Positions 13,142-59,370 of a stretch of DNA of 64,000 bases are shown one piece after another; within the stretch, counting starts at the first letter, position 1, and every line of letters starts with the position of its first letter. The notes beneath the pieces were generated by a model that saw only the letters and a program-made list of their open reading frames with translations, was not told the DNA's origin and made no database searches. This DNA comes from Microcaldota archaeon (lineage in GTDB: Archaea > Micrarchaeota > Micrarchaeia > Micrarchaeales > Micrarchaeaceae). The DNA lies in contig JAJZAJ010000001.1 of NCBI GenBank assembly GCA_021799475.1, positions 1 to 64,000 of the forward strand, in the 5' to 3' direction. The position numbers were made by a program, and so were the translations under genes.

Positions 13142-13156
13142 CAAAAATGTGATGAT

Positions 13157-15243: not shown

Positions 15244-15251
15244 GTGATTGA

Positions 15252-18540: not shown

Positions 18541-18718
18541 ATGGTACAATATATTGTTACTTAGGTACTTATATTTTATTTCAACATATGACAAACACGC
18601 AGCGCTCACGCAGGGATGAAATAAAAAAGAAAAAGGATGATAGTCTTGAGGTATTAATGCGAGGAAAAAACGCATTAGCTTTCCGATGCACACTGTACCT
18701 TAAACTTGAAAAGTTTTT

Positions 18719-20202
18719 AGGTGATCTATCCGCAGGTTCCCCTACGGATACCTTGTTATGCCTTAGCCCTCCTCACAGAACTTTAATTCGAAAGCATCAA
18801 AAGACGCTGCCTCATTAAAGCCCCACTTGGGTGACTTGGCAGGCGGTGTGTGCAAGGAGCAGGGACAGATTCACCGCACGATGGTGACATGCGATTACTA
18901 GGGATTCCAGCTTCATGAGGGTGAGTTGCAACCCTCAATCCGAACCTGGGTTGGTTTTAGGGGATTGGCTTCGCCTTTCGGCGTTGCAGCCCATTGTGCC
19001 AACCTTTGTATGTCACGTGTAGCCCGGGAGATTCAGAGCATACTGACGTACCGTCGCCCCTTCCTTCCTCCTCTTTAAACAGAGGCGGTCTCGGCAGAGT
19101 GCCCCGTTCTTCGCAGAACAGGTAGCAACTGCCAACAGAGGTCTCGCTCGTTACCGGACTTAACCGGACAGTTCACACCACGAGCTGACGATCGCCATGC
19201 ACTACCTCTCGGCTCGTCAGGCAAGATCTTTAGTCTGGCCTTCACACTGCCGTCGCTCCCGGTAATATTCCCGACGTATTATTCAATTAAACCGCAACAT
19301 CCACCCCTTGTGTGCTCCCCCGCCAATTGCTTTAAGTTTTAACCTTGCGGCCGTACTCCCCAGGCGGCAGACTTAACACTTTCGCTACGGTACTGCAAAC
19401 GTTCAAGACATTTGCAACACCAGAGTCTGCATAATTTACTGCTAGGGCTACTCGGGTATCTAATCCGATTCGTTCTCCTAGCCTTCGCTCCTCACTGTCG
19501 GATGCGTTCTGGTAAGGCGCCTTCGCCACCGTTGGTCCTCATAAGATTACAGGATTTTACCCCTCCCTCATGAGTACCCCTTACCTCACCCGCTCCCTAG
19601 CCTACAGGTATCTCATGCACGCATTGACGTTGAGCGCCAATATTTCACATGAGACGGTGTAAGCCAGCTACGAGCGCTTTAAGCCCAATAATCGTGGATA
19701 CCACTTGTGCCGCCGGTATTACCGTGGCGGCTGGCACCGGTCTTGCCCGGCACTTATTCGCCAAGCTTGCTATACTTGGCAAAAGGTTCACCGAAGTGAA
19801 CCACTCGGATTCCCCCCATCACACTTACGTGCATTGTGGAGTTTGCGCGCCTGCTGCACGCCGTAGCGCTAGGGCCCTTGTCTCAGTGCCCTTCTGGGGG
19901 CCTATACTCTCATATCCCCTACTGGTTATAGGTATGGTGGGCCGTTACCCCGCCATCTGCCTGATCAGGTGCAGTCCCATCGTAAAGCAGTAATGCTCCA
20001 ATTTACAACTTTTTCAACTATGGCTCCTTCCAGATGCCATAGCCTATGTGGGATTAACCACAGTTTCCCGTGGGTGTCCCCCTCTTTACGGTAGGTTGAC
20101 TACATGTTACTCAGCCGTACGCCGCCGTATCAAGTGATACAGCTGACTTGCATGGCTGTCGAAATCCGATAGCGGTATCCTCCAGCAGCATCGACTGGAG
20201 TC
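18719..20202 (-). rRNA. rrs: 16S ribosomal RNA
   Basis: About 1.48 kb of archaeal 16S rRNA lies on the minus strand. The 5' end aligns at CCAGTCGATGCTGCTGGAGG and the 3' end at GTAGGGGAACCTGCGGAT and AGATCACCT. The tail continues as AAAAAC instead of CCT, so the usual anti-Shine-Dalgarno CCUCC is absent. The bases just past CACCT can fold into a hairpin (18698-18721) that pairs CCU with AGG. No 23S, 5S or tRNA-Ala gene follows in the window. Confidence 0.97.
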
Positions 20203-20416
20203 GATGTTCCGGAAAAGCTGCTTCTAATTCTTAAAAGCTGATTGTGCGTTTATTTCCTCTTTGCACTCCTCAAGACTATATCCAATTCCAAGCAGGAATT
20301 TTCACTACTCGCACCGAACGGTGGGAGTTCCTAAGCTCGTTCTGCTCACCCCGATGGAAAACCATCAGGAAACATAAGAATAGGCAACACTATTTTACAG
20401 AGTAAAGTATTTATAG
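20203..20416 (-). promoter_or_regulatory. 16S rRNA promoter and leader
   Basis: A minus-strand TATA box (TATAAATAC, about 20407-20415) gives a predicted start near 20385 and a leader of about 180 nt before the mature 16S end. The leader holds two short hairpins (CACCG-AA-CGGTG and GATGG-AAAA-CCATC) that may belong to the precursor processing structure. Confidence 0.6.
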
Positions 20417-28883: not shown

Positions 28884-30794
28884 ATGGGAGATAGTGATTA
28901 CAGCGCAAAGGATATAGTCGTGCTTTCGGGCACGCAGGGAGTCAGAAAAAGGCCCGCTATGTATATAGGAAGCACAGGCAGCACCGGCTTCCTGCATCTG
29001 CTATATGAAGTGCTCGACAATGCGATAGACGAAGCGATCGCAGGATACTGCGATACGGTCACGATCAAGCTCATAAGAGAGGACGGAATAGACGTCTGCG
29101 AGCTATCCGACAATGGGAGGGGGATACCAGTAGACCCTATACAGAAAATAGGGAAGCCTGCGCTCGAGGTCATAATGACATCGCTCCACTCGGGAGGAAA
29201 ATTCGAGAACAAGGCCTATAAGGTTTCTGGGGGCTTGCATGGAGTTGGTCTAACTGTAGTGAATTCCCTCTCAGAATATACGGAAGTGGTGGTGAAGAGG
29301 GACGGGAAAGTGTACAGGATGCGCTTCAGCAGAGGAGCGGTTAGTTCGCCGCTTGAAGTAATAGGAGATACGAGTGAAAATGGAACCTCAATAAAGTTCA
29401 AGCCCGATACGGAGATATTCTCTGTAAGAAATTTCGACACCGTGATGCTGACAGAGAGGCTCAGGGACCTTTCATACCTTAACCCGGGCGTCAGGATAAC
29501 GCTAATCGATGCAAGAGAAGAGCCAGGAAAGACCTATGAGTATTATTCTAAGAACGGCATGCAGGATTTCCTTAATTACATGAAGAGGGACAAGCAGGAG
29601 CTCAGCAAACAGATTATCATTTCGAAACAGGTGGATGGCCTTAAGCTTGACCTTGCAATGCAGTACGTAAACAGTTACAGCGAGGAATTGCTTTCTTTTG
29701 TAAATAAGATAAAGACAAGCGAAGGCGGGATGCATGTTACAGGATTCCACGGTGCGCTTACGAGAGCAATAAGCAACTATGTGCAGAAGAATCCGAAAAA
29801 ACTGGGGAAGCATTCTGCAGCATTGGAGGGGGAGGACACAAGAGAGGGGCTTGTTGCTATAATATCTGTGCTTATGCAGAACCCTGAGTTCGAAGGACAG
29901 ACAAAACAGAAGCTGGGCAATGTGGCCGTGAAGGCGTTTGTCGAAAACGTAGTCTATCATGAGGTTTCTAGATACATGGAGGAGAACCCGCAGGATGCTG
30001 TGGCGATACTCGATAAGGTATATACTGCGGCAGAAGCAAGGGAGTCCGCAAGGAAAGCGAGGGAGCTTGCACGGAGGAAGAGCATGTTTGACGGGCCGGT
30101 CCTCCCGGGGAAACTGGCTGACTGCACAGAAAGCGATCCCGAGAAAGCAGAGATATTCATAGTAGAGGGCGAGAGCGCCGCAGGGAGCAGCAAGCAGGCA
30201 AGAGACAGGTTCTTCCAGGCGATCCTGCCTCTTAGGGGCAAGATATTGAACATAGAGAAAGCTACCGAGGACAAGATATTCAGCAACGCGACGCTGCATA
30301 CCATGGTTACCGCATTCGGCGCCGGGATAAAGGATAACATGAACCCCGAGGAAGTGCGATACAAGAAGATAATAATACTCACCGATGCGGATGTGGACGG
30401 CAGCCACATAAGGACTTTGCTGCTGACGTTCTTCTACAGGTACATGAGGCAGCTGGTTGAGAGAGGCTATGTCTATATAGGACAGCCCCCGCTCTTCAAG
30501 ATAAGTAGGGGAAGGGAGACGAAGTATGCATACTCCGACCAGCAGCTCGAAACCATAATGAAAGGATATGACGGCAAAGCGACAGTGCAAAGATACAAGG
30601 GGCTTGGAGAAATGAACCCTGAACAGCTCTGGGAAACCACGATGGACCCAAAGGTCAGGGTGTTGAGGAAGATAAAGATCGGAGATGCAGAACTTGCAAA
30701 CACGATGTTCACGATATTGATGGGACTTGATGTGGAGCAGAGGCGCCATTTCATAGAGGAGCACAGCAGTGAAGTGAATTTCCTTGATGTGTGA
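28884..30794 (+). CDS. gyrB: DNA gyrase subunit B
   Basis: This is the ATPase subunit of bacterial-type gyrase, which introduces negative supercoils. The GHKL fold is seen in EVLDNAIDEA and GRGIPVD. The TOPRIM domain has VEGESAAGSSKQ and DADVDGSHI. The length of 636 residues equals the short GyrB form without large insertions. ATG 28884 follows a GGAGGGTG ribosome site. A TATA box (TATTTAAATC) lies near 28804. It is followed by a GNAT gene and gyrA. Confidence 0.97.
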   Translation: MGDSDYSAKDIVVLSGTQGVRKRPAMYIGSTGSTGFLHLLYEVLDNAIDEAIAGYCDTVTIKLIREDGIDVCELSDNGRGIPVDPIQKIGKPALEVIMTSLHSGGKFENKAYKVSGGLHGVGLTVVNSLSEYTEVVVKRDGKVYRMRFSRGAVSSPLEVIGDTSENGTSIKFKPDTEIFSVRNFDTVMLTERLRDLSYLNPGVRITLIDAREEPGKTYEYYSKNGMQDFLNYMKRDKQELSKQIIISKQVDGLKLDLAMQYVNSYSEELLSFVNKIKTSEGGMHVTGFHGALTRAISNYVQKNPKKLGKHSAALEGEDTREGLVAIISVLMQNPEFEGQTKQKLGNVAVKAFVENVVYHEVSRYMEENPQDAVAILDKVYTAAEARESARKARELARRKSMFDGPVLPGKLADCTESDPEKAEIFIVEGESAAGSSKQARDRFFQAILPLRGKILNIEKATEDKIFSNATLHTMVTAFGAGIKDNMNPEEVRYKKIIILTDADVDGSHIRTLLLTFFYRYMRQLVERGYVYIGQPPLFKISRGRETKYAYSDQQLETIMKGYDGKATVQRYKGLGEMNPEQLWETTMDPKVRVLRKIKIGDAELANTMFTILMGLDVEQRRHFIEEHSSEVNFLDV

Positions 30795-30799
30795 TTACT

Positions 30800-34490: not shown

Positions 34491-34616
34491 GCATAAAGCA
34501 ATATAGCATAATTAGAGATAGCAAGAGGACAGGATTGCTCATTATATCTTTATTGGCGTGTTTAGCCCAATAAAAGACAGTTTATGTGAAGATTAAACAT
34601 TCGTATTGGTGAAATT

Positions 34617-36139: not shown

Positions 36140-36910
36140 ATGAAGACAATAGTGATGCCGGGAGATGTGATAGAGCAGACGGCTGAGAGGATAGAGAATA
36201 CTTACTCCGAGAATGGAAAATTGTACTCGAAGATAATTGGGCTTTACGACAGCGAAAAGGGCTCGCTGGTGTCTCTCGAAGGAATCTGGTCTCCGAGGGT
36301 CGGGGATAATGTCGTCGGAATAATAAAGAGCGCGAGGAATGCAGTCTACGAAGTCGATCTGTCTTTCTTCCTGAGGAGCATACTTGTAGGGAGCAAATAC
36401 GACAGGCATATACACAAACCAGGAGATGTCATAGAGGCAACAATAAAAGATGTAGAGGACAGGAAGACTGTTGTTCTTACGGCGGAGCGCGTGCTCCACG
36501 GCGGAACGGTGCTGAACGTAAAGCCGACAAAGGTCCCAAGGATAATAGGCAAGGCCAATACCATGGTGAAGCAGATATCCGATATGACGAGGTGCAACAT
36601 CATCGTTGGAAAGAATGGAATAGTTTGGATAAAAGGAGGGAATGTTGCGCTTGCGACTGCCGCGATAAGGCAGATAGAGGACGAAGCGCATACGTCTGGG
36701 CTCACGGAACGGATAAAGAAGATGCTTGAAGACGGAGGAGGCAGCATGCCGGAACCTGTGCAGGAGGCAGATAAATACGGAAATGCAGAGACACCAGATA
36801 ATGATATGAGGCGGAACGGCCCTCATGGCAGTTATAACAAAGATAGGAATGCTGAAGTGAAGGGATATACCGCAGCTTCGGACAATACTGATATTGAAAT
36901 TGAAAAGTGA
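36140..36910 (+). CDS. rrp4: exosome complex RNA-binding protein Rrp4
   Basis: This cap subunit of the archaeal exosome has an N-terminal domain starting MPGDVIE, an S1 domain (HKPGDVIEATIKDVED) and a KH domain (GKNGIVWIKGG with preceding RIIGK). The C-terminal 50 residues are polar and low in complexity. AAGGAGATAAC precedes the ATG. The three exosome genes lie in the usual order, and the complex degrades or tails RNA from the 3' end. Confidence 0.95.
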   Translation: MKTIVMPGDVIEQTAERIENTYSENGKLYSKIIGLYDSEKGSLVSLEGIWSPRVGDNVVGIIKSARNAVYEVDLSFFLRSILVGSKYDRHIHKPGDVIEATIKDVEDRKTVVLTAERVLHGGTVLNVKPTKVPRIIGKANTMVKQISDMTRCNIIVGKNGIVWIKGGNVALATAAIRQIEDEAHTSGLTERIKKMLEDGGGSMPEPVQEADKYGNAETPDNDMRRNGPHGSYNKDRNAEVKGYTAASDNTDIEIEK

Positions 36911-36914
36911 TTTT

Positions 36915-38447: not shown

Positions 38448-38455
38448 GTGATACC

Positions 38456-39300: not shown

Positions 39301-39370
39301 TGCCGTTTATGCGTATCCTTCTCTGGCTTCTGCCTGCCTTTTGATATCCTTGATATCCATTTGTGATACC

Positions 39371-39748: not shown

Positions 39749-39784
39749 ATGTGAATTTACTACTGGATTTTTATCGGTGAAATT

Positions 39785-59203: not shown

Positions 59204-59370
59204 TGTTAACACTTCTTTTAAGTTAAAGATAAAAGCTGCCGTAAAACAAAGAAAAAGACAGCATTACCTATTTGCCGTCTGCATATAAAAATATATCGGA
59301 AGAGCCTCCTTCCCTATGCCTTTTCTATATTCTATTTATATCTTGCTTTACAATAGATACCGGTGACCAG

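Follow-up and report, generated by a model that had tools for sequence, protein, structure and literature searches.

The CCUCC core at the 3' end of 16S rRNA is near-universal and has been regarded as the invariant half of the Shine-Dalgarno (SD) language; it is usual for SD/anti-SD initiation, yet not strictly defining. In earlier surveys, loss of CCUCC goes together with loss of SD use (PMC6107228, PMC3522020). Genomes that have lost the anti-SD are found in Flavobacteria, hemotropic Mycoplasma and insect symbionts (Lim et al., PMC3522020), and in Nanopusillus, which is without both CCUCC and SD binding (PMC10783764). A 2018 survey reported that organisms without a standard anti-SD are generally without SDs; among the variant anti-SDs that it encountered, none had a variant SD as its perfect match (PMC6107228). 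Organisms that are without CCUCC but retain SD binding form category iii of a 2024 survey and are nearly all Thermoprotei, e.g., Acidilobus, Metallosphaera and Sulfolobus islandicus; left-shifted archaeal anti-SDs, such as those of Methanococci (AUCACCUC / GAGGUGAU), form its group 15 (PMC10783764). A shortened tail combined with SD use is thus known in Thermoprotei; for Micrarchaeota, we found no earlier report and no paper joining ‘Micrarchaeota’ and ‘Shine-Dalgarno’ in the literature searched, in which subscription journals were scarcely covered.

The stretch of DNA that we analyzed (64,000 nt, hereafter the window) carries a full-length 16S rRNA gene on the minus strand (18716..20201; Rfam RF01959 SSU_rRNA_archaea, 1398.4 bits, model positions 1-1478), whereas no 23S was found in these 64,000 nt. 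The gene ends in GGAUAGAUCACCU followed by AAAAAC, and is without CCUCC, as a sequence-only reading of this DNA had claimed. It is the single 16S copy of the genome (814 kb, three contigs, 95% complete), in which the window makes up bases 1-64000 of contig 3, and no CCUCC-bearing 16S, which that reading had named as one observation that would overturn it, was found at another locus. More specifically, the tail reads CUGCGGAUAGAUCACCU AAAAACUUUUC, with AAAAACUUUUCAAGUUU coming after CUGCGGAUAGAUCACCU, and at the usual place of the CCUCC core the window has CACCUAAAAAC. We delimited the tail GAUCACCU (18719..18726, minus strand) by its sequence, its conservation and a 5-mer scan (see below); it contains the pairing part, AUCACC (18725-18720, minus strand), and is followed by AAAAAC (18718-18713, minus strand), in the position of the CC of CCUCC-type relatives. 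In helix 45 (~18727-18755, minus strand), the closing pairs co-vary across the class (UAUCCG/CGGAUA, UAGCCG/CGGCUA and UAACCG/CGGUUA), the closing pair being U-A in the class and U-G in other prokaryotes. Since the helix closes with U-A, the free tail begins at GAUCACC.

The gene is flanked by the two arms of a 16S processing stem, a leader arm (AUAUAGUCUUGAGG-AGUGC-AAA-GAGGAAAU...; 20245..20281, minus strand) and a trailer arm (CCUC-GCAUU-AAUA-CCUCAAGACUAU; 18640..18676, minus strand), which cofold into a stem whose offset bulges flank a short helix, i.e., a bulge-helix-bulge-like structure. The trailer motif, CTCAAG/CTCGAG, recurs in 26 of 28 relatives. Excision at this stem implies that the mature 3' end of the 16S is cut later, and archaeal Nob1 makes this cut in vitro (PMC8339473). 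The zinc ribbon of Nob1 (PF08772) had no match in any genome searched, nor in any control, so that its absence carries no weight. A short hairpin (AAACTT...AAGTTT type; 18713-18699, minus strand) lies directly 3' of the tail. Stems of at least 5 pairs near the tail occur in 49 of 106 trailers from the order, against 30 expected from shuffles; such a hairpin is real in some lineages and not universal, and we rejected it as a part of the mature 16S.

We compared the tail across a sample of 295 genomes of the phylum, of which 161 belong to two families of the order of the window and 134 lie elsewhere, scoring as shortened any tail with CCTC-R, or CCT followed by A or T, at the CCTCC position. Within the order, CCTCC was found in 0 of 161 genomes and a shortened tail in 117; the remaining genomes presented neither pattern, as expected from incomplete genomes. 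Of the 134 genomes from other orders of the class, CCTCC is present in 84 and a shortened tail in eight. These eight fall into three families, two of which (f10 and f12) also hold CCTCC members, indicating that tail shortening arose more than once. CCT followed by A or T characterizes eight genomes of the order from six genera (the window's own, G000, as well as G008, G050, G066, G067, G078, G144 and G196), among them ARM-1, whose genome is complete. Nearly all records that share the 16S tail of the window carry the name Candidatus Micrarchaeota, Ca. Micrarchaeum A_DKE and ARM-1 included. In 110 aligned tails from the order, each base of GAUAGAUCACCU is nearly fixed and the base after it is C in 93%, followed by A or G and then by an A-rich stretch in which conservation fades, while CCUCC relatives of the same class have CCUCC and then AA. 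Most members of the order therefore end in ...GAUCACCUC, and several lineages, including that of the window, in ...GAUCACCU. Judging from the sequences, the shortening looks like a change of the last C to a purine (or its deletion), with some lineages having lost the preceding C as well. The loss of CCUCC is thus order-wide; the earlier premise that nearly all prokaryotes have CCUCC was fair, but the trait belongs to a whole order, and the gene sequence of Sulfolobales is similar.

Two further observations were made among the relatives. In one genome (G023; L006:3415), the 3' end of the 16S recurs ~460 bases downstream of the first copy, with the tail GATCACTCG, which lacks one C, and is again followed by the trailer motif, as if the end of the 16S had been partly duplicated. 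Several 16S genes of order relatives (L020-L028) span ~1950-2270 bases, compared to ~1486, probably owing to introns or large insertions.

We next turned to the start sites, calling genes by an in-frame hexamer (coding) score only, with no start motif used. This yielded 819 genes in the window's genome, and 379-427 genes in 400 kb of each of four comparison genomes: two of the order, G021 (tail CCUCA) and G027 (CCUCG), and two CCUCC relatives, G069 and G122. The top motifs upstream of the 819 starts were GTGA, GTGAT, GGTG and GGTGA, with sharp spacers of 4, 3, 5 and 4 bases, respectively. GTGA occurred in 193 upstream regions, 120 of these at spacer 4, with a matched window as background giving 25; the counts were 155 versus 23 for GGTG (92 at spacer 5) and 103 versus 9 for GTGAT (70 at spacer 3), the last bearing out the genome-wide enrichment that the sequence-only reading had predicted. 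These excesses are far larger than chance would give. In register, GTGA and GGTG were enriched ~22- to 26-fold over background. Counting genes with GGTG or GTGA at -14 to -3 gave ~260 of 819, compared to 23 in a control window, which means that roughly 29% of genes use the motif. When every 5-mer of the whole 16S was scanned for complements upstream of starts, ATCAC (z 28) and TCACC (z 26) scored highest, followed by CACCT (z 13.6); ACCTA was not enriched (z 1.1), and the windows past it were at background or weakly above. A motif complementary to the tail therefore stands at a fixed distance from the starts, as in other SD/anti-SD systems, and enrichment is strong where SD-losing genomes have none. 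The genome has no CCUCC and its upstream regions pair with the tail, the combination that defines category iii (PMC10783764).

The eleven pairs of motif and start listed earlier for the window are all present in the sequence, and nine of the starts were called independently by the coding-score caller; the other two, at 39 and 39169, belong to short ORFs (46 and 43 aa) that are not among its genes. On the plus strand, GTGAT stands at spacer 3 at 13149..13153 (start 13157, 254 aa), 15244..15248 (start 15252, 187 aa), 36907..36911 (start 36915, 249 aa), 38448..38452 (start 38456, 79 aa) and 39363..39367 (start 39371, 125 aa), and at spacer 4 at 30791..30795 (start 30800, 179 aa). GGTGA stands at spacer 4, likewise on the plus strand, at 34608..34612 (start 34617, 233 aa), 39776..39780 (TTG start 39785, 197 aa) and 59362..59366 (start 59371, 341 aa). 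An extra base claimed for the last of these is not there, as its GGTGA is followed by four bases and not five.

In the CCUCC relatives G069 and G122, GGTG peaked at spacer 5, GTGA at spacer 4 and GAGG at spacer 7. The equal GGTG and GTGA spacers place the anchor of the helix at the same point, with the 5' end of the motif cut back in the mRNA. Accordingly, of the earlier description of a shortened and shifted anti-SD, the shortening stood (in the 16S gene, across the order, and in motifs that stop at the encoded tail), while the shifted register was rejected. The CCUCC relatives extend the motif 5' to GAGG and GGAG, an extension that is gone in the window's genome; all that is missing is the A, G, G that would precede GGTG, i.e., the 5' half of the motif, and the helix is accordingly shorter, with its center nearer the start codon.

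This loss is graded. GA preceded GGTG at 49 of 189 sites in CCUCC genomes versus 18 of 274 in three order genomes (Fisher, 1e-8), the latter being the background level. GGAG in register was enriched 3.8- and 4.3-fold in the two CCUCC genomes and 1.2- and 2.0-fold in the two CCUC genomes, and stood at 0.9-fold in the window's genome (CCUA); the corresponding values for GAGG were 6.6- and 7.7-fold, 2.4- and 5.6-fold, and 1.7-fold (1.0-2.7), a borderline excess of 19 sites versus 11 expected. Pooled genes from 134 CCUC loci gave 1.2-fold (0.7-2.1) for GGAG and 2.9-fold (1.9-4.2) for GAGG. In line with these values, the ratio of GAGGT-N6-ATG to its reversed control was 1.25 in 66 order genomes versus 3.11 in 45 CCUCC genomes (p 1e-7), and 1.05 in three genomes from outside the order whose tails were shortened separately. 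The ratio for GTGAT-N3-ATG was 5.7, 5.2 and 3.9 in the same three sets, i.e., with no difference between the order and the CCUCC genomes. For GGAGG-N7-ATG across the phylum, the reversed-pattern control ignores coding bias, and we relied on position-resolved counts instead. By pattern counts, GAGGT enrichment is also absent in eleven CCUCC relatives, and two genomes with CCU tails (G067 and G078) have ratios near 2.5, on small counts, so that the link between tail and motif is imperfect in some genomes; for CCU-tail genomes other than the window's, the SD profiles are based on 40 genes (7 loci) and on pattern counts. In five CCUCC genomes of other orders (G060, G073, G074, G088 and G130), both GAGGT and GTGAT are little or not enriched before ATG, and these are perhaps mostly leaderless or non-SD lineages.

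Given the sequence of the gene and its spread among genomes, the motif found genome-wide and in register, and the disappearance of its extension, we propose, with a probability of about 85%, that the 16S of this order lost the 3' part of its anti-SD while SD-led initiation was kept, the 5' extension (A, G, G in the mRNA) lapsing stepwise with the tail. About three in ten genes carry GGTG and/or GTGA, which would pair with AUCACC in the register of the CCUCC relatives. The mature rRNA would end at or just past CCU(C), the SD helix with the remnant tail would form on the ribosome, and the tail presumably shrank first, with the mRNAs following. We also consider it rather probable that the whole order dropped CCUCC at the RNA level too, unedited, using AUCACC(U) for SD pairing, with leaders tracking the tail base by base.

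The main rival explanation is that the rRNA is edited, its tail being trimmed to CCU(C) and C added post-transcriptionally, which would restore a mature CCUCC. This happens in S. solfataricus, where the gene has CCTCA but 27 of 32 rRNA clones have CCUCC (PMC11698992). The encoded bases after CCU drift freely (in at least six genera), which is expected too if those bases get replaced. However, restoration would select GGAG and GAGG leaders as in the CCUCC relatives of the same class, which use both, and this is not the case: the start motifs track the encoded tail, GGAG being at background in the window's genome and in the pooled CCUC loci and GAGG nearly so in the former (0.9- and 1.7-fold, respectively), which argues against restoration. 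Two Sulfolobales-type genomes (L032 and L117), taken as a positive control for restoration, gave no GAGGT signal either (60 versus 108 and 43 versus 47 in controls), which is uninformative because most S. solfataricus mRNAs are leaderless (PMC11698992); in such genomes, counting patterns over the whole genome is by itself a weak proxy. Overall, we regard editing as unlikely. Far less probable is an error of assembly in the CCTA tail: the assembly is a single metagenome-derived one and the tail is one base off most relatives, but CCTA or CCTT recurs in the eight sampled genomes described above, complete ARM-1 included, and the start motifs of the window's genome fit CCU.

We give even less credence to GTGA(T) being a by-product of TGA stops, GTG codons or a transcription element. 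GTGA does contain TGA, and 24 of the 120 spacer-4 sites are the stop of an upstream gene, too few for stop codons to be the main cause; GGTG, which holds no stop codon, is equally enriched, 50 of the 120 sites precede leading genes and 43 lie within tight operons, a GTG at -8 and the start codon are in different frames, and no other stretch of the 16S is complementary to the motif to the degree that its 3' end is. Finally, it is scarcely credible that CCUCC comes from another 16S gene or from an exon joined by splicing. Although pre-16S in archaea is released at a bulge-helix-bulge stem, and such a stem is present here, the excision retains the bases right after the tail, so that CCUCC cannot be joined, and the genome, 95% complete, has one 16S only, in an order where the CCTCC pattern is found in 0 of 161 genomes.

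If the order indeed has no CCUCC at the RNA level, it offers a natural replay of SD/anti-SD co-evolution. SD use persists alongside a trimmed tail in this clade, sampled here by ~160 genomes, with steps graded through CCUCC, CCUC and CCU, such that comparative data can reveal which tail bases are needed, and at which spacing. For Micrarchaeota, gene callers tuned to GGAGG-type sites need a GGTGAT-type motif, and the case provides a sharp test of how widespread the S. solfataricus type of 16S end restoration is.

Compared with known systems, the order resembles the SD-abundant Thermoprotei in having a gene without CCUCC and mRNA leaders that pair with the 16S tail, but belongs to another phylum; their gene reads CCTCA, with a mature CCUCC in S. 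solfataricus, whereas here the tail can be cut down to CCU, and the extension of the SD has gone. With S. solfataricus 16S maturation it shares the CCTCA gene, found in many genomes of the order; there the RNA is restored to CCUCC (PMC11698992), while the start motifs here argue against restoration. As in anti-SD-losing genomes, CCUCC is absent from every 16S copy; in those genomes, however, the SD sequences are lost as well, whereas SD use here is strong. Like Methanococci, the order has pairing that reaches 5' of the CCUCC position into AUCA, with GGTGA-type SDs, but Methanococci retain CCUCC and the GAGG part, whereas the anti-SD here stops at CC or CCU.
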